Shown in pieces: positions 1,764 through 62,900 of a stretch of DNA of 64,000 bases. The notes beneath the pieces were generated by a model. It was not told where the DNA came from. It saw nothing but the letters and a program-made list of their open reading frames with translations, and made no database searches. Location of the stretch: NCBI GenBank assembly GCA_003569705.1, contig BGOU01000003.1, positions 186,001 through 250,000 of the forward strand, in the 5' to 3' direction. This DNA comes from Nitrosarchaeum sp. Its GTDB lineage: Archaea > Thermoproteota > Nitrososphaeria > Nitrososphaerales > Nitrosopumilaceae. How positions within the stretch are numbered: position 1 is the first letter of the stretch; each line of letters starts with the position of its first letter. Both the position numbers and the translations under genes were made by a program.

Positions 1764-4700
1764 CTAAGTATAATCAGTTAATAGTGATTGATCGCCTTTA
1801 TTCTTTCCAAAAACTAAATCAATTTCATCAGATAGTGCCTGGATTCTTCCTCTTTGGTATGCACCAACATCATATTTTTCAACTAATCTCTTTGCAAGAC
1901 TAAGATATTTTTCTACAGAACCTCTAGTTATAGTTGGAATTAGATTATGACCACAGATACAAGTTTGAATCAACGGCATCCTACGATATGATTTTCCACA
2001 ACCAGTACATCTGAAATTTTGTCTAGCATAAGCACGGAGATTTCCCATAATATCAGGAACTAGATGTGTGGAGATTACATTTGAAACAATTTCTGATGTA
2101 TTTACTGCATCAATTAGTTCAGCATTTCTAATTTGCATATCGAATTTGTCAAGCATGGAACCAAGTGTGGAATATGCACTACGTGATTTTGATGTGGTAA
2201 GAGAAGTTGTAGAATGTGTAAAATAATATCCAAAAAATTGTCTTTCTGTTTCAAGGCGGGATTTGATAATATCTACACATGTAACATCTGAGGCTTTGTT
2301 TTGTTGAATTGTTGATTTAAAGAATTCAAGTGGTAGAAATTTAACGACTTCTAGATTGTGTGCTTGTGGTTGTGATTCATGTGGTAATACAAGTGGTTGA
2401 ATCAATAATGGTGCGTCCATCAATCCACCAATTCTGTCAGAAAGAAACTGTCTTGAAAAATTTAGAAGGCTATCCATCAAGAGCATAATAGAATCAGCAT
2501 CTCCATCTGCATCTCTTCTTTTAGCAGAATGCCAATTCGGAGTAGCAAAACAAACATGTGTTTCAGTATAGCCAATTATTCTTCCAACAATACCTACAGA
2601 TGTATGAGGTGCTAATCCAATTATTAGATGACCAACTAATTCATCCGTATTTTTAATATTATAGAAAGTTGATTTTTCATAAAATTTCTCTAAGATAGTA
2701 TCAATGTATTTACAGGTAGATACAAGATATCTTCCACTCTCGTTTGGAATAATTACATCTTGCATTCGAAGTTCAACTATCTGATCTGAATTTGTTAATG
2801 GTTTTCCATCAATATCATGAGTATAACCAAGACTGTTTAGTTTCTGAATAGATGTTCCAATCCATGATGGTTTGAATTGAGTAAGAGGAGAATTTGTTGC
2901 ATCAAAACGTACAGTTCCATCTTTGAATACTGTAAGACCAAAGTTTTGACGAACTAAGCCTTTTTCCAGTGGTTCTGCTATTCTATCTTGATTGATTAAT
3001 TCCTTAACTCCTTTGAATGGTTCTTGTGCGCGTAACCCCATTTTTTCTTGTGCTATCAATAATTTTGTTTTTAATGGAAACGCTTGATGAGAATGCGATG
3101 ATGCTTTTCGTTTACATTTTTCACAATATGGGTTATCAAGTTCATCTCGACAGTTACTACATCGATAAATTATTGATGTTTTAGTGCCACATTTTGAACA
3201 TTTTATTCCAATTGATGGTTCATTACATTCATTACAATGTCTATTGAAAATATTTGTAAAAAAATTATCTTGTCTTGAGGCTTTTAGTAGATCTCTAGTT
3301 GGACCTCCTTTGTCATTAACTGGAAATAGGATATGTGTTGGAGGTTTCATTTGTCTAGGAGCCGCTTTTTCAGGTCTTCCTATTCTAACTCCAATTGAAG
3401 TTGAGAATTTATTTTTAATTTGAATTCCAGATGATTTTGAAAGAATTTTTGGTATAGATGAATCATTAATTTGTGGTTCTTGTCTAAATAATAGATTATA
3501 AAAAATTCTTGCTTCTTCTTTTTCAAGAATTATTTGATTGTTATTCATTTTATGTGGTACACCAAGTTTTTCAAGAATATTTTTTACTTTTATAGAATAT
3601 TCTATGGAGTTTTCATTAATTTTGTTTGGGTATAAGATTTTTGAGAGTTCTTCAGGTGATATTTGATCCCAATAATACAAGTATTGTGGATGTAGTGGTA
3701 TTTGAAAATCCAATGATAGTTTCAATGCTTCATCTAAAGTAGGAATTTTGGTTAGAAATTGAATTAGAAATTCATCATCTGGAGCATATTTTGCTAATTT
3801 TTCTTTTAATTCTTCAATCCAAAATTCTTCGACATACCCAGTAGGCACAAGTTGAGCATTATTTTCTAAGAAATCTCCAAATGATATTAGGATGTCACCT
3901 AAATGAAGAATTTTTTCAATTTCACCTTTAATTTCAATTCCATGTTTTACATCTTTTATTTTTACAACATCACCATTTTTTAGTCGAACAATTGGTGTAT
4001 CAATAGAATCAACAAAAGCTACAGTTGCACCTTTACCTGGAATGTCAATTTTGACTTGAGTGCCAACAGCAATGGTATGATCTAAGATCTCAGCAATTAT
4101 AGGATTAATTCCTACAGCTGCAAATCCTGTATTACAAGCTCTACCATATCTTAAACGAAAACCACCAAGTTTGTTAGGCATGGATAGGACGGATCTTCCT
4201 GTAATTACTTCACGCATTCTCTTGGCTGCTGCGTCTTCCTGATTATCTCCTGTTTGAACTGCTCCTTTTAGATCTCCAAGCCACTCCCAACCATCTAATT
4301 TGTACAGTTCAATTCTTTTGAGTAGTTTTTTAGATCTTCCAATTAATCCATCATTTAGAACTCTTAATGCACCTCCTCTAACTCTATTTGTTTTAATGCG
4401 AGTCATTCCTTTATGATTTACAACTTCAAAAGGATCTGTATCTACACCATCTAACTCTACAGGTAGATTTGATATAACATGAATAATATCTTCATCTAGA
4501 ATATGAAATTGGAAGCTACTAGCTTCTCTTTCATAAATTCGAAGCTCTTCAACAAATCGGCCAGTTTCATCATCATTAAAACAATTTGCTTGATATTTTG
4601 ATAAGCCAGCTGTTTTTCTGACATGATCAGCAATTAGTATTGTTACCGCTGATTCGGTTCCTCCAGCTGAACGCATTGGTCCAGCAATAGATACAGAAAG

Positions 4701-5144
4701 ATATTCACTCCCATCTTTGTTTTTCTTTATCTTAACTTCACTAATTCCTTGTAATGGAGCAATTGTTACTCCCTCTGTTACTATAGCTAGACCTACTCTA
4801 ACTGCCAAATCTAGTTTTTGTTCTAAAGTTGCATCAGTAAGTGAATATTTTCCTAATGCAATTTCTTTTGATAGAATTAATGCAGATAGTTCTTTACCGT
4901 GTATTTTTAATAATTCTCGTAAAGGTTCAGCAATATCAATATCATGCATTTTGGCAACTCGATCTGCCAAATCAAATGCAATTTTAGGCTCAATTACTCC
5001 TGAAGAATCTACTAGACTGGATTTTGCTAGAGCTGCATGCTCAAAAATAGTATAGGTGTCTTTTGAAAGATTAGAATAATAATCAAGATAATAATTTGGC
5101 ATCTTAATATCACTAATACGAGAAATAGCGTCATTTTCAGACAT
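1764..5144 (-). CDS. polC: DNA polymerase D large (catalytic) subunit DP2
   Basis: Catalytic subunit of the archaeal family-D replicative polymerase, 1126 residues. Visible features are the N-terminal GPMRSAGGTESA segment, a cysteine-rich zinc-binding region (about 633-676, several CxxC pairs), the acidic catalytic motif with DADGDADS (about 878-886), and a C-terminal zinc ribbon (CTGCGKSY followed by CICGHN, about 1057-1078) that normally contacts PCNA and DP1. No intein is seen. GGGP synthase lies 13 bases upstream on the same strand, so the two are probably co-transcribed. The partner subunit DP1 is encoded at 9419-10870, on the other side of the proposed origin. Confidence 0.98.
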   Translation of the reverse strand: MSENDAISRISDIKMPNYYLDYYSNLSKDTYTIFEHAALAKSSLVDSSGVIEPKIAFDLADRVAKMHDIDIAEPLRELLKIHGKELSALILSKEIALGKYSLTDATLEQKLDLAVRVGLAIVTEGVTIAPLQGISEVKIKKNKDGSEYLSVSIAGPMRSAGGTESAVTILIADHVRKTAGLSKYQANCFNDDETGRFVEELRIYEREASSFQFHILDEDIIHVISNLPVELDGVDTDPFEVVNHKGMTRIKTNRVRGGALRVLNDGLIGRSKKLLKRIELYKLDGWEWLGDLKGAVQTGDNQEDAAAKRMREVITGRSVLSMPNKLGGFRLRYGRACNTGFAAVGINPIIAEILDHTIAVGTQVKIDIPGKGATVAFVDSIDTPIVRLKNGDVVKIKDVKHGIEIKGEIEKILHLGDILISFGDFLENNAQLVPTGYVEEFWIEELKEKLAKYAPDDEFLIQFLTKIPTLDEALKLSLDFQIPLHPQYLYYWDQISPEELSKILYPNKINENSIEYSIKVKNILEKLGVPHKMNNNQIILEKEEARIFYNLLFRQEPQINDSSIPKILSKSSGIQIKNKFSTSIGVRIGRPEKAAPRQMKPPTHILFPVNDKGGPTRDLLKASRQDNFFTNIFNRHCNECNEPSIGIKCSKCGTKTSIIYRCSNCRDELDNPYCEKCKRKASSHSHQAFPLKTKLLIAQEKMGLRAQEPFKGVKELINQDRIAEPLEKGLVRQNFGLTVFKDGTVRFDATNSPLTQFKPSWIGTSIQKLNSLGYTHDIDGKPLTNSDQIVELRMQDVIIPNESGRYLVSTCKYIDTILEKFYEKSTFYNIKNTDELVGHLIIGLAPHTSVGIVGRIIGYTETHVCFATPNWHSAKRRDADGDADSIMLLMDSLLNFSRQFLSDRIGGLMDAPLLIQPLVLPHESQPQAHNLEVVKFLPLEFFKSTIQQNKASDVTCVDIIKSRLETERQFFGYYFTHSTTSLTTSKSRSAYSTLGSMLDKFDMQIRNAELIDAVNTSEIVSNVISTHLVPDIMGNLRAYARQNFRCTGCGKSYRRMPLIQTCICGHNLIPTITRGSVEKYLSLAKRLVEKYDVGAYQRGRIQALSDEIDLVFGKNKGDQSLLTDYT

Positions 5145-7200: not shown

Positions 7201-7362
7201 ATGTCAGTACAAGAAAATGAGGTTTTAGTAAAAATTACATCTGCAGGAACAATTTCTATTCCAAAACAGTTTCGAAAATACATGGATCTTCAAAAGGGTG
7301 AATATGTAAAAATTATCTTAGGTAAGGATCGTCTTATAGTACGAAAAATTATAATTTCTTAA
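7201..7362 (+). CDS. AbrB/SpoVT-like DNA-binding protein, 53 residues
   Basis: A short gene translating as MSVQENEVLVKITSAGTIS, continuing with IPKQFRKYMDLQKGEYVKI. It matches the swapped-hairpin AbrB/MazE fold (VKITSAGTISIPKQFRK, then GEYVKIIL) found in small transcription factors and antitoxins. ATG start, TAA stop at 7360-7362. No toxin gene is adjacent. A TATA-rich stretch (7140-7200) precedes it. Its last 14 bases overlap the 3' end of the convergent gene 7349-7750. It may act as a local regulator near the origin; this is inference. Confidence 0.75.
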   Translation: MSVQENEVLVKITSAGTISIPKQFRKYMDLQKGEYVKIILGKDRLIVRKIIIS

Positions 7363-7750
7363 TTGATTGTTGTTTTTGACCAAGTTTTATGGTTTGATAT
7401 GTCCATTCACGGCCAGTTCTAATCCTATCAATCTTACCTTTAGTAGAAAATCTGGATAAATATGTAGAGATTATGCTTAATTTAACAGGCTCATTGTATT
7501 CATCTTCATATTTTTCAAGTATGTTTGTAGATGTGAACTTGCCAATTAGGAAGAATTTGTCTACAATATGCCATATTTTTGAGCCTATCGAATCCATATT
7601 AGTGGTTTCTTGTTCTTCTTCTATATTCATTAAATCCATCATTTCAAATATTTTTAGAACCTTTTCTCGAGTGACATTACCCTCTAATTTGATGTCATAT
7701 CGTGCTCCATCAGCGTCTTCCATATCAATTCTAATACGTTTTTTAGCCAT
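7349..7750 (-). CDS. Winged-helix-like protein of unknown function
   Basis: A 133-residue soluble protein. Residues 1-35 form a short strand-helix unit (KKRIRIDMEDADGARYDIK). The C-terminal half (about 58-120; KIWHIVDKFFLIGKFTSTN, then YLSRFSTKGKIDRIR) looks like a winged helix with a basic wing. It is transcribed away from the proposed origin, so its promoter lies inside the origin region and could be sensitive to Orc1/Cdc6 binding. I do not recognise a named family. Confidence 0.7.
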   Translation of the reverse strand: MAKKRIRIDMEDADGARYDIKLEGNVTREKVLKIFEMMDLMNIEEEQETTNMDSIGSKIWHIVDKFFLIGKFTSTNILEKYEDEYNEPVKLSIISTYLSRFSTKGKIDRIRTGREWTYQTIKLGQKQQSIKKL

Positions 7751-7844
7751 CTTTGAGATCTATGAGGATCTAATGTTAACAGTTCAAGTGATCCCAGAAC
7801 ATTTGTCAACTAAGAGGTTTGTTAACATTGACTGCCTAGACCAC

Positions 7845-7854
7845 GCCTAGAGTG
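7845..7854 (+). promoter_or_regulatory. Degenerate half ORB-like element
   Basis: GCCTAGAGTG matches nine of ten bases of the left part of the ORB element at 7911 (GCCTGGAGTG), but the following GGAAAC-AAGGGGG part is replaced by a T-run. It may be a decayed or weak site, or chance. Confidence 0.3.
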
Positions 7855-7910
7855 TTTTTTGTTATTAACAATATTAATAATTTTGATTTATTAATAATTC
7901 TCCAAATTAT

Positions 7911-7933
7911 GCCTGGAGTGGAAACAAGGGGGT
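7911..7933 (+). promoter_or_regulatory. Origin recognition box 1 (ORB-like)
   Basis: Core GGAGTGGAAACAAGGGGG, preceded by GCCT. It has the TGGAAAC core followed by a G-run that characterises archaeal Orc1/Cdc6 binding sites. It is the best-preserved copy here and is in direct orientation with ORB2, 62 bp away (about six helical turns). Confidence 0.85.
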
Positions 7934-7972
7934 CTGTTTTAGGATATTCACATTGTTAACGTTAATCTTAAC

Positions 7973-7995
7973 GCCTGGAATGGAAATAAGGGGGT
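7973..7995 (+). promoter_or_regulatory. Origin recognition box 2 (ORB-like)
   Basis: Core GGAATGGAAATAAGGGGG, preceded by GCCT. It differs from ORB1 at only two positions in 23 bases and is flanked on both sides by TTAA. It faces the AT-rich stretch 8019-8060. Confidence 0.83.
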
Positions 7996-8018
7996 TAAAA
8001 TGACCTTTTTAGGAGTTT

Positions 8019-8060
8019 TCTTAACAGGAAATTAACAAATTGTTAATAATTTATTGGATT
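8019..8060. other. Probable duplex unwinding element
   Basis: About 40 bases of nearly pure A+T between ORB2 (pointing right) and ORB3 (pointing left). It contains a perfect inverted repeat with arms ATTAACAA and TTGTTAAT around a single A (8031-8047). Position and composition fit an unwinding element; this is an inference from layout. Confidence 0.6.
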
Positions 8061-8067
8061 AAACCCA

Positions 8068-8086
8068 CACACCTTTCTTTCCACTC
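8068..8086 (-). promoter_or_regulatory. Origin recognition box 3 (inverted ORB-like)
   Basis: On the minus strand it reads GAGTGGAAAGAAAGGTGTG. It shares GAGTGGAAA and the AA-GG spacing with ORB1, but its G-run is interrupted. It is inverted relative to ORB1 and ORB2, so the pair flanks the AT-rich stretch. Confidence 0.7.
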
Positions 8087-8212
8087 TATCTTTTTCTTTA
8101 ATTTTTTTTATTGAAAATCTAAAATCTAACTAAAAATAATTAATTATAAACTAAACTAGAATAACTATTCTCTTCTATACTCTCTAAATCCAAATATCAT
8201 TATGTTACTATT

Positions 8213-8231
8213 GAGTAGAAACATAGGTGTG
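8213..8231 (+). promoter_or_regulatory. ORB-like element overlapping the cdc6 start
   Basis: GAGTAGAAACATAGGTGTG resembles ORB3 (GAGTGGAAAGAAAGGTGTG), with four differences in 19 bases. It ends on the first base of the GTG start codon of cdc6. Binding here would block cdc6 transcription or translation, so autoregulation is a reasonable inference. Confidence 0.55.
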
Positions 8232-9442
8232 TGAGTATGTCTGACCCAATTGATAGATTACTTGATGCAGCTGAATCTGGCAAATCAATAATCAAAAATA
8301 GAGAAATACTTCAGGATACATATATTCCAAATATTATTCAACATAGAATTTTGGAACAAGAACAAATAACACATTCCTTACTACCAATTCTTAAACATTC
8401 AAGACCATCAAACTTACTAGTATATGGCTCAACAGGAAGCGGAAAAACACTAGTAGTAAAAAAAATACTAAATAAAATTCAAGAAAGAGTAGAAAAATCA
8501 AAATTTCCAATAAAACTAGTTTATTCTAATTCTAAAGAAGAAGCAACCCTTTATGGATTCTTAGTAAGTTTTGGGAGACAATTAGGTTTAACTGATAAAG
8601 AATTACCTAGTACGGGCTTAGCAATAAGTGAAGTCTTTAAACGAATACTAACCAGAATAGACGAATCTAAAATAAACGCAATTTTTGTTATTGATGAAAT
8701 TGATTCTCTTGCTGAATTAGTAACAAAAACTGGTAATGATATTTTATATCAATTAACTCGAGCCAATGAGCGTCTAAAACAAGGTTCATTGGCTTTAGTA
8801 GGTATTTCAAATAATCTTAGATTTAAAGAAAACCTTGATCCCAGAGTAATTAGCAGTCTAGGTGAAGAAGAAGTGGTTTTTGGGAATTATGATTTAGAAC
8901 AATTAACCAAAATATTAGAGGAGCGAATCAGAGAGGCATTTATTCCGAATTCTGTAGAAGAATCAGCTTTGAATCTATGTGCTGGTATAGCTAAAAAACA
9001 AGGTGGTGATGCTAGAAGATTAATTGAATTAATTCGCGTTGCAGGAGACATTGCTGAAAGACAACAATCACCCAAAGTTATAGTAGAACACATTAGAGAA
9101 GCATTACAAAAAATCGATGTAGATAAAGAAGAAACAGTTCTAGAGGCATACGGTCTTCATGAAAAACTTGTTATGGTTGCAATAATGAAAGCAGGAGGTT
9201 CTTCATCTACAGGAGAGATTTATTCATTTTACAAAGGATTGTGTAAAACATTAGGACAAGATGAATTGACACAAAGACGAATTACTCAATATCTGAATGA
9301 AATTGAAATGTCTGGAATGATTTCTGGAAGACTAATTCATCAAGGAATACATGGAAATACAAAAAAATACAAACTTGAAATCAAACCCGAAACGATAAAA
9401 AAATCCTTTAAAGATGATTTAACTTTGCAGAATATTATTTAA
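8231..9442 (+). CDS. cdc6: Orc1/Cdc6 replication initiator
   Basis: AAA+ ATPase that binds origin recognition boxes and helps load the MCM helicase. It has 403 residues. Walker A is GSTGSGKT (about 66-73), Walker B is FVIDEID (about 151-157), and a C-terminal winged helix begins near residue 310 (MVAIMKAGGSSSTGEIYSF). The start is GTG at 8231 or ATG at 8237, two codons later. The gene directly adjoins the proposed origin and an ORB-like site touches its start. Its 3' end overlaps the convergent PolD small subunit gene by 24 bases. Confidence 0.96.
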   Translation: MSMSDPIDRLLDAAESGKSIIKNREILQDTYIPNIIQHRILEQEQITHSLLPILKHSRPSNLLVYGSTGSGKTLVVKKILNKIQERVEKSKFPIKLVYSNSKEEATLYGFLVSFGRQLGLTDKELPSTGLAISEVFKRILTRIDESKINAIFVIDEIDSLAELVTKTGNDILYQLTRANERLKQGSLALVGISNNLRFKENLDPRVISSLGEEEVVFGNYDLEQLTKILEERIREAFIPNSVEESALNLCAGIAKKQGGDARRLIELIRVAGDIAERQQSPKVIVEHIREALQKIDVDKEETVLEAYGLHEKLVMVAIMKAGGSSSTGEIYSFYKGLCKTLGQDELTQRRITQYLNEIEMSGMISGRLIHQGIHGNTKKYKLEIKPETIKKSFKDDLTLQNII

Positions 9443-10870
9443 TTTATTAGAATTATAATTTTCATGATAAACTTTGAAAGTCTTCAAATTTACCATAAGT
9501 GCTATTCCTGGATTAGGAGTCATTCCAACACTGGCTTGAAATGGAGTCTGTTTTTGCCAAGAACCAGAATTTAATAAAAGAATTCCTTTGTACATATCCA
9601 ATTCAGCTCTATGTACATGACCAACATGAAAAATATCAGGAATATCATCAATTACCATCAAGTCTTCCATTTCAGGTGCAATTGGGGTTTGACTACCATA
9701 AATTGGACTAAGATGTCTGGCTCTAAGAAGATGTTTCATTACATTTGTGGGTTTATCATAACTTAGACCTGGTGTAGTTTTTACAATATCATCGATACTT
9801 TGACCATGAAACATCATTACCTTTACACCATTCAAAGAAATAACAGCTGGATTTCCAACCATGAACATATTCTCTTTTTCCCATAATGCAGAATTGTATT
9901 TTTTTGGAATGGCTGGTTGTGGTAATGCTCTACGTCCAGGATCATGATTTCCTGGTATAATGAATATTTTGATGTAATTAGGAATTCTACTAAGAAGGTC
10001 TTCAGCCTTTTTTAGTTGCTCTTCGATGGTTTGACATACTAATTCTTTATCTTGATTTGGATAGATTCCAACACCATCTACCAAATCTCCACAAATTAAC
10101 ACAAAACGAATTTTCCTTGCTATTGGATCTGGAGTAGATAACCATGATACAAATTCAGTAAATTCATCTTCCATGAAGTACTTACTACCAATATGTAGAT
10201 CTGAAAGAAAAGCGGCATATGTCTCAGTTTCAGACTTATTTGAGGCTTGATCAGGAATATCAGGCGAAATCAAATCTTTTATGATAAAACCAGCATTTTT
10301 CCCAAAACCTATTCGTGCCATAATGAATTGATCACTAAGTAATGAACCTGCTATTTTTTGCAATTCAGCATCAAAAACAATTCCTTCAAATGAACCTGAA
10401 GGATCTTCTAAGACTAATTTTGTTATATTTCTCTCAGTACTTCTGGTAGTTACAAGACCACAAACATACATGTCATCATCAGATTTTATAGTTTTGATAG
10501 AAGCAATCGACTTTAACATTCTTGATTCTGGCCTATCTGAGATTATTCGTTTTAATTTGTTAAAACGACTTGAAAAAAGAGCATTATACCCTTTTACTCC
10601 CTCACCAGTAGTAATTCTCAAAGTTGGATCAAAGATTATTTTATGATCATTTTGTAATGTTTGATCCTCTTTAATTCCTAGATAAACTTCCAAATCATCT
10701 TGATTAATTTGAAATAATTTTTGTTTTGTTTTCTCACGAACAATTTCTTTAATTATTTTTTCTAATTTTTTTACATCAATATTCTCTAAAAACTTGAATG
10801 CATCAGGATGAATTTGAAACCCTTTATTCAAAGCATAATTCAAAGCAACAGTTAGCTCCTTTTTCATCAT
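9419..10870 (-). CDS. polB: DNA polymerase D small subunit DP1 (proofreading exonuclease)
   Basis: Small subunit of the archaeal family-D polymerase. It has an N-terminal helical domain, an OB-fold (about 130-200) and a C-terminal calcineurin-like phosphoesterase domain that provides 3'-5' exonuclease activity. The metal-binding motifs are all present: DLHIG (about 225), GDLVDG (about 262), GNHDPG (about 308), HGQS and GHVH near the C terminus, so proofreading should be active. The frame opens with TTG-ATG-ATG; I take the ATG at 10870 (10867 is equally possible). It overlaps cdc6 tail to tail. Confidence 0.96.
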   Translation of the reverse strand: MMKKELTVALNYALNKGFQIHPDAFKFLENIDVKKLEKIIKEIVREKTKQKLFQINQDDLEVYLGIKEDQTLQNDHKIIFDPTLRITTGEGVKGYNALFSSRFNKLKRIISDRPESRMLKSIASIKTIKSDDDMYVCGLVTTRSTERNITKLVLEDPSGSFEGIVFDAELQKIAGSLLSDQFIMARIGFGKNAGFIIKDLISPDIPDQASNKSETETYAAFLSDLHIGSKYFMEDEFTEFVSWLSTPDPIARKIRFVLICGDLVDGVGIYPNQDKELVCQTIEEQLKKAEDLLSRIPNYIKIFIIPGNHDPGRRALPQPAIPKKYNSALWEKENMFMVGNPAVISLNGVKVMMFHGQSIDDIVKTTPGLSYDKPTNVMKHLLRARHLSPIYGSQTPIAPEMEDLMVIDDIPDIFHVGHVHRAELDMYKGILLLNSGSWQKQTPFQASVGMTPNPGIALMVNLKTFKVYHENYNSNKLNNILQS

Positions 10871-10945
10871 CAAAGAATGTTTTTTGGTTTAATTAAATCT
10901 GCGCCTATACCCAACCCTCAAATATTGTTTCTAGTAAAAGATAAC

Positions 10946-59995: not shown

Positions 59996-62900
59996 ATGAT
60001 TAATTTGAAAAAATTATTGTAATATTGTTAGTTGTTGGTCTATTAGCTGTTTTTCCAAATTACAGTGTTTCAAAAAATGGTTTTGCTGATAACCTAAATC
60101 AAGAAAATAGTAATACATTATCATATGAATCTAATAATTCATTAACATATGAAACTAGTAAATCTATATCACTTAATCTTTATGAGACTTTAATTATTCA
60201 ACAAGACAATTCACACTATGATCTAAAATCTTTACCAACAAATGTAAATTATAAAATTTCACTTGTTGATAATTTATATATTAATTTAGATGATAAAAAA
60301 TTAGATAAAATATTACTAGTTTCAAATCCATATGATAAAATTAAATTAATGGAACAAATAAGATCAAACAAGCAAGAAAATGTTTTCTCATCTGATAGTT
60401 ATTTAATTTCAAATCCTTTGATCGCAACTAATCTACAATATCCTAATGATCCAATTGTAGTTAACAATGAATTTAATTTATTACCTTTTGACTTTAATTA
60501 TTTCATTGATGATATTATTACAAAGAATAAATCCATTAATGAAATTTTCAAGTTAGATCAATTAACACAAAACTTTGATGGTCATCTTGTACTAATTTTC
60601 ATTCCATTTATTGGATTTCTATTTTTTAAATTAGAGTATGGAAAAATATCTATCGTAAGATCTAGATCATCATTAAGTTCATTTCTAGTAATTTTGCTAA
60701 TCTTCTCAGCATTTTCATCTCCATTTACAATCTCTTCTAATTATTATAGTTCTGCATATGCAGAAGAATTTTCATTTTCTGGTATAATGAATGATGATCT
60801 TATCAATCATTTGAACTCAAACAATGGTGTTAAAGTTACAATTGAACCACTTTTAGCATCAGATGTTTCAGATAATTCAACAAATTCTAATACAGAATCA
60901 ATCATTGATGCATCAACTGAGTCTATACTTAATTCTACATCAAATCTAGTAAACGCTACAACCACAGAGTCTATACTTAATTCTACATCAAATCTAGTAA
61001 ACGCTACAACCACAGAGTCTATACTTAATTCTACATCAAATCTAGTAAACGCTACAACCACAGAGTCTATACTTAATTCTACATCAAATCTAGTAAACGC
61101 TACAACCACAGAGCCTATCATTGAACCAACTGGAACTATTTTATCTACAGAATTAGATTCTCTTCAAAATAAACTTACAGAAACTGAAATTCTTGCTAAC
61201 CAAACATCAAGTTCCATTAAATTAGATGGTAACGATGATTTTGTAACAATAGTCAATGAAACATCTACTGATAATTTAGCAGAACTAACAATTTCTTCAT
61301 GGGTAAAACCAGATTATTCTCAAGGCTCTCAGGAATTTACTGTAATTAGTAAAGATAACTCGTTTATTTTATCAATTAATAATCTAATCACACCAACAAA
61401 AATTGCCAAATTTTCAGTCTTTGATGGTATAAAATGGACAAGTGTTGAATCTACTAGTATAATTGATGAAAAATGGACACAACTAGGTGCCACATTTAAT
61501 GGAACATCAATTCAAATCTATGTTAACGGACAACTAGAATCTACCAATACACTTGAAGATCAATTAACTTTATCTGTAAATGGCAAGCTTACTTCCACAA
61601 CAATTGATTCTTTATCATCAGAATCGGATATTGTTATTGGTGCATATGTTGATGTAAGAAAAGGTTCAGAACAAATTTCACAACAATTTTCTGGTCAAAT
61701 AGATGGTGTTTCATTATTTAATTCACAATTGGATAACTCACAAATTAAATCACTTTATGATGAAAAATCTGAATATTACATGTCACAAAATTCTGTAGAA
61801 ATTGATCTTGATGCAATATTGGCAGAAATAACAGCTGAACAATCTGTCAATGCAACCTCTACAGAACCTACTGAAATTATCGTTACTGAATTGATAGTAA
61901 ATGCAACTCTAGATTCTGTTAAAGAAAGCTATCTAATTACAGAAAATGCTAAACTAACTTTAGAATTCTATGATGAACATGATGTTTTGACAAATGAACT
62001 TGAAGAACTTGAAAGTTCTTTACTATTATTATCTAAATTAGAAGAAACAATCATTGCTAATGCTACTGCAACAGAACCAACAATAATTGCTAATGCTACT
62101 GCAACAGAATCAACAGATGATGAGCAATTAAAAATAGATATTGCAAATATCAAAGAACAAATTCTATTACTAAAAGAAAAAATTAATGCAATTAAAGCAA
62201 ATAAAGAAATTAATGAGCAAGACATCAAAGAATCTAAACTTCAACTTAAATCAATTCTAACAGAACTTGATCAAAATGCAAACAGTCTATCACAAAATAA
62301 TAATGACATGACACAGCAAATACAAAACTCTACTGATAACATTGAAGAAATTGGTGATGTAGAATCTGAAGCTATAATTCAGGAAGATATATGGGCTGGA
62401 AATGAAGAACAAATTACAACAGATGTTTATGATGCACAAGGTAATCTTGTAGATCTAAAAGCAAACTATGAAAAAATCAGAGATGGTAAATTCGAAATCA
62501 ATCTAGACTTTGATGCAAATGACAAGCCAGGTCTTTACAAAGTAAAGACAACATTACTTGTAAACGGAGAAACCCATACAGTAGAAAGCGAATTTGCATG
62601 GGGACTAGTATCACTAAACACTAAAAAAAGTACATACAAACCAGGTGAAACCGCAGATTTTGTAATTGTTGTATTGGATAACCAAGGACATCCAATAGGC
62701 GATGCTACACTATCAATGGATATTATTAATCCAAATTCTCAGATTACACATCTATCATCTGGAAATGGAATTGTTTCAGGTGCAGAAACAGGTCTTTATG
62801 ATACTAAATTTGTAACTGGGGAAGAAGGGGTTTACACAGTTGATATCAATGCAAAAGCAAATGGAATTGATACAAACTTTAGCACAACATTTAGTGTAAA

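Follow-up and report, generated by a model that had tools for sequence, protein, structure and literature searches.

The window analysed here, 64,000 nucleotides in length (C3:186001-250000), belongs to a 1.46-Mb genome in 10 contigs from the Nitrosopumilaceae, and comparison of Cdc6 identifies Nitrosarchaeum as its nearest named relatives. Only one gene in this genome encodes a Cdc6_C domain, and the best PDB matches of its product, A. pernix ORC1 (2v1u) and S. solfataricus Orc1-1 (2qby_A), make it an initiator of the Orc1-1 type. The surroundings of this gene, a neighbourhood with genes for both subunits of DNA polymerase D, contain the following features:

1764 to 5144, minus strand: DNA polymerase D large subunit (DP2), in the same replication neighbourhood
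7349 to 7750, minus strand: divergent gene for a winged-helix protein (133 aa) that belongs to no named family, just beyond the GATC block
7752 to 7830, no strand: conserved GATC/GTTAAC block, with GATC at 7757, 7767 and 7790; a putative further cis element of the origin, distinct from the ORBs, or the operator of the divergent gene
7912 to 7935, plus strand: E1, an ORB with G-string (CCTGGAGTGGAAACAAGGGGGTCT), in the 24-mer frame of the PWM
7974 to 7997, plus strand: E2, an ORB 62 bp 3' of E1, in the 24-mer PWM frame
7998 to 8062, no strand: E2-E3 spacer with conserved TTAACA repeats, the alternative unwinding region (duplex stability at the 3.6-6.3 percentile; conservation)
8063 to 8090, minus strand: E3, an inverted ORB, GGTGTGTG variant; 24-mer PWM frame 8067-8090, with similarity extending to 8063
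8091 to 8208, no strand: AT-rich E3-E4 interval, the best candidate duplex-unwinding element (duplex stability, conservation) and probably also the cdc6 promoter
8209 to 8236, plus strand: E4, an ORB, GGTGTGTG variant; PWM frame 8209-8232, with similarity extending to 8236
8237 to 9442, plus strand: cdc6/orc1, Orc1-1 type initiator (Cdc6_C, Cdc6_lid), with GTG 8231 as alternative start
9419 to 10873, minus strand: DNA polymerase D small subunit (DP1), the neighbour of cdc6

A search of Rfam returned no match anywhere in the 64-kb window. Far to the right, between 58000 and 61000, GC content drops to as low as 22% and open reading frames are sparse; a tandem-repeat ORF at 60807-61121 on the minus strand carries four copies of VVVAFTRFDVELSIDS.

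Four ORB-like elements had been described beside cdc6 in the first-pass annotation, together with AT-rich inverted repeats among them. All four are present where they were placed, and the inverted repeats lie at 7862-7900 and 8038-8049. The boxes fall into two classes, E1 and E2 with GGGGT and E3 and E4 with GGTGTGTG, and the latter two form an inverted pair that is 81% complementary over 27 nt. They are also unique in the genome: the relaxed pattern RTRGAAANNWDGGKGT has exactly four matches in the 1.46 Mb, all of them at E1-E4, and the reversed control pattern has three. When contig C3 was scanned with a PWM trained on relatives, E1-E4 scored 27.8-36.9 bits and the next-best site 13.4; in the complete genome of a congener (G014, 1.6 Mb) the four corresponding sites again rank at the top (25.4-36.6), followed by a site at 11.5.

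The same elements recur upstream of cdc6 in related genomes, as had been anticipated for an origin. The order direct-direct-inverted-direct (>><>) is found in 77 of 82 distinct family loci, and the spacing between E1 and E2 is 61 or 62 bp in all but one of those 77; shuffled sequences yielded no ORB sites at all. Throughout most of the order a direct pair recurs at 60-64 bp, there with canonical ORBs.

Nucleotide skew places a chromosomal extremum close to this locus. In each of three genomes cumulative GC skew reaches its maximum 4-10 kb away from cdc6. On the host contig it falls at 189,766, some 4.5 kb from cdc6 at 194,231; in G014 it is at 1,524,125, with cdc6 at 1,534,105 and the minimum at 761,302 of 1,607,695; and in a third genome (G035, analysed without 800-1200 kb) it is at -4.2 kb relative to the point, beside cdc6, where the numbering begins, with the minimum at 613,014 of 1,232,128. 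The minimum is thus roughly opposite cdc6 in both genomes examined beyond one contig. The amplitude of GC skew in G014 is marginal by itself (block-shuffle p 0.056); AT skew and purine skew in that genome are strong (p 0.0005). In G014, G035 and C3 the origin coincides with the GC-skew maximum, not the minimum, and the leading strands are C- and T-rich; most bacteria have the opposite sign, with a minimum at the origin. The weakest duplex of the locus, at 8098-8157 between E3 and E4, belongs to the weakest 0.11% of the contig, and 8121-8165 in the same interval is strongly conserved.

Uniqueness of the sites, their conserved layout, the skew extremum, the weak duplex and the adjacent Orc1-1-type gene lead us to regard this as the place where the host very probably starts chromosome copying, in a known kind of layout and as first proposed. 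We are highly confident that 7751-8236 is the single chromosomal origin, with four ORBs for putative binding by Cdc6 through a family-specific interface. ORB clusters do occur without origin activity, as at haloarchaeal oriC2D (PMC3936714), and E1-E4 could by analogy be titration or regulatory sites only, replication starting elsewhere. That would leave the skew extremum at the locus, and its antipode opposite, to be accounted for in another way, and neither the pattern nor the PWM scans found a further ORB cluster in the genome; such an arrangement is therefore scarcely credible.

If the locus works as an origin, the Cdc6 encoded alongside would occupy the four ORBs, as polar monomers. Flanking the weakest duplex (8091-8208) in inverted orientation, E3 and E4 would, together with the direct pair E1/E2 at its fixed 62 bp, position MCM, and the whole arrangement would mark where the DNA unwinds for bidirectional replication. 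The interface between Cdc6 and its ORBs is predicted to be peculiar to the family, on whose branch both the Cdc6 wing and the left half-sites of the boxes have changed. Which spacer melts is less sure from the polarity of the boxes, since the G-strings of E3 and E4 point away from the interval between them and those of E2 and E3 face the E2-E3 spacer. The E3-E4 interval is the best candidate duplex-unwinding element, and the E2-E3 spacer could unwind as the alternative.

The fourth box had been described as overlapping the GTG start of cdc6. E4 is indeed at the start of the gene, but two start codons have to be considered, ATG 8237 and GTG 8231. The sequence AGGTG at 8225-8229, inside E4, is a possible Shine-Dalgarno well spaced for ATG 8237, and in two related loci (L037 and L039) small indels shift the GTG out of frame. 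Judged from this spacing and the broken frame, cdc6 probably starts at ATG 8237, and E4 would then abut the start codon without overlapping it.

E4 abuts or overlaps the cdc6 start in most family loci. Nine deep family loci have about 100 bp between the two and keep E4 nonetheless (L020, L022/L083, L024, L026, L027, L029, L030 and L091; eight are distinct, L022 and L083 being near-copies). E4 in these genomes stands 100-145 bp ahead of the start codon and holds its place relative to E3. The stretch from E4 to cdc6 in the insert genomes was also considered as a possible small ORF, and it has no conserved frame. The retention of E4 across such a gap points to an element that belongs primarily to the origin, the conserved constraint apparently acting on the origin and not on the start codon.

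It had been proposed that E4 implies repression of cdc6 by its own product, and the position of E4 at the gene start in most loci is in keeping with this. DnaA autorepresses at dnaA, and Cdc6 could similarly block transcription or translation of its own gene from a site at the gene start. Several outgroups at the level of the order also have E4-like sites some 40-57 bp in front of cdc6, and the Orc1-2 of Sulfolobus provides a case of an Orc1-family protein able to regulate promoters (PMC9738581). Against E4 being mainly an operator are the nine deep loci in which it is kept about 100 bp away, and the pair L027 and L085, whose Cdc6 proteins are 95.5% identical and of which only L027 has the insert. 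Insert gain or loss amounts to about five changes on the tree (4-5 in bootstraps), of which well-supported branches force only one. A main role as operator therefore seems rather unlikely. The PWM scores of E4 are lower in insert genomes, which allows for a secondary role, and in loci where E4 adjoins the start codon, Cdc6 bound there may repress its own gene. It is far less probable that E4 is no ORB at all and consists merely of a Shine-Dalgarno and start context: AGGTG does stand 7 nt before ATG 8237, but E3, distant from any start codon, shares GGTGTGTG with E4 and pairs with it along 27 nt, the GAAA core of E4 is conserved, and the element survives 100-145 bp from the start in the insert genomes. 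E4 is thus best viewed as an origin element first.

Comparison of the boxes with those of other archaea reveals a change in half of the recognition sequence. The canonical archaeal ORB is given by the common motif of Ori-Finder 2, TCCA[CG]T[TG]GAAA[TC][GA]AAGGGGT (PMC4164010). Its right half, TGGAAA with the G-string, is present in E1-E4, and its left half, TCCA forming a dyad with TGGA, is absent from family boxes. There TCCAnTGGAAA has become T[GA]GAnTGGAAA, and what was a palindrome, TCCAnTGGA, is now a direct repeat, TGGAnTGGA. Of 312 family sites 287 have G at base 4, and of 59 sites outside the family 54 have C. TRGA boxes occur in 15 of 15 family genomes sampled, in which the sole TCCA match lies off the origin; TCCA boxes occur in 37 of the 56 genomes examined from the rest of the order. 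The match to other archaeal ORB cores, and the deeply conserved initiator-DNA code that the first-pass annotation drew from it, accordingly extend to the right half (TGGAAA...GGGG), common to other archaea, and fail for the left half, recoded in the family together with the Cdc6 wing.

The arginines of the A. pernix Orc1 winged helix that lie near ORB DNA are R345/R346 and R367/R369 (PMC9738581). In an alignment with A. pernix ORC1 the latter two fall in the wing, RGRYG. Equivalents of R345/R346 are kept in all sequences, inside and outside the family. At the position of R369, a residue in contact with the ORB, all 25 outside sequences have Arg and none of the 85 family sequences does, their residues there being I, M, T or S; at the R367 position sequences outside the family vary and those inside have Gln. 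The change of the left-half base and the loss of the R369-equivalent arginine map to one and the same branch. The link is for this reason a correlation, from which we infer co-adaptation, and it stays at n = 1, since no second independent lineage with TDGA-type boxes was found in another 127 genomes of the phylum (five isolated single matches, no pairs).

The cdc6 gene (window 8200-9400) is in addition a trough of identity with congeners, 78-89%, the right flank being at 88-96%. At locus L097 (3001-4200) the identity of cdc6 falls to 69-76% and returns to 92% exactly at the gene end. These sequence profiles suggest allelic replacement of the initiator gene.

To the left of E1 lies the conserved GATC/GTTAAC block. 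Its GATC sites keep their offsets from E1 (-155, -145 and -122) across the family, the block occurs just once in G014 and once in contig C3, and a related GATC arrangement fills the insert between E4 and cdc6 in the nine deep family loci. Of 61 relatives, 53 have the divergent gene that lies beyond it, and throughout the order this gene almost always adjoins cdc6 or the origin; the 133-aa protein shows identities of 80-95% across Nitrosopumilus and Nitrosarchaeum and 59-76% in deep family loci. An AF2 model of the protein is a winged helix (pLDDT about 90), and the matches obtained were weak BlaI/CopY/MecI-like ones only. Kinship with WhiP or UBP was considered and dropped, as the fold search gave generic winged helices only, none at E <= 0.001. 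A literature search on GATC as a Dam/SeqA-like methylation switch yielded nothing on thaumarchaeal GATC control. The simplest reading is that the block is the operator of the divergent winged-helix gene, and it may be an origin site as well.

A larger scenario would join these observations. The ancestor of the Nitrosopumilaceae would have recoded Cdc6, with loss of the R369 equivalent, and all of its boxes, from C to G and from palindrome to direct repeat, by co-evolution; family Cdc6 would no longer recognise canonical archaeal ORBs, the converse would hold as well, and the winged-helix protein would bind the GATC/GTTAAC block as a second dedicated origin factor. Taken as a whole this is tentative, and we put it at somewhat under an even chance. 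Ammonia-oxidising archaea are abundant, and their origins are known from one mapped species in the literature searched. A fixed four-box layout, a swap of base for residue on one branch and a putative second origin-linked DNA-binding protein would open to direct test, with purified proteins, how initiator specificity can evolve without killing the cell.

That mapped species is Nitrosopumilus maritimus, of the same family, for which a single chromosomal origin is reported (Pelve et al. 2013, as cited in PMC4010727 and PMC5333045), and by analogy with which ORB repeats before a cdc gene have been mentioned (PMC5797428). The host resembles it in having one origin; the recoded left half, the loss of the wing arginine and the GATC block are features derived from the present analysis, and together with the family-wide fixed layout they have no description in the literature searched. 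As in archaeal origins of the oriC1 type, several ORBs, at least one pair of them inverted around an AT-rich region, stand beside an Orc1-1-type gene at an extremum of the nucleotide disparity curve. Sulfolobus oriC1 requires two inverted ORBs around its DUE (ORB3-DUE-ORB2, with Orc1-1; PMC12141716), and the host shares the adjacent Orc1-1-type gene and inverted ORBs flanking an AT-rich region, but has four sites in >><> order and differs in the left half-site and the wing arginines. With the canonical archaeal ORB it shares the TGGAAA core and G-string, with T[GA]GA in place of TCCA. Haloarchaeal oriC1 likewise has inverted ORBs with G-strings beside cdc6, with the G-rich repeat inside the ORB pair (PMC3936714), whereas in the host E3 and E4 point outward and E2 and E3 inward. 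The origin is thus of a known kind, and its recoded boxes with loss of the wing arginine, its fixed layout and its GATC block make it a variant of that kind.
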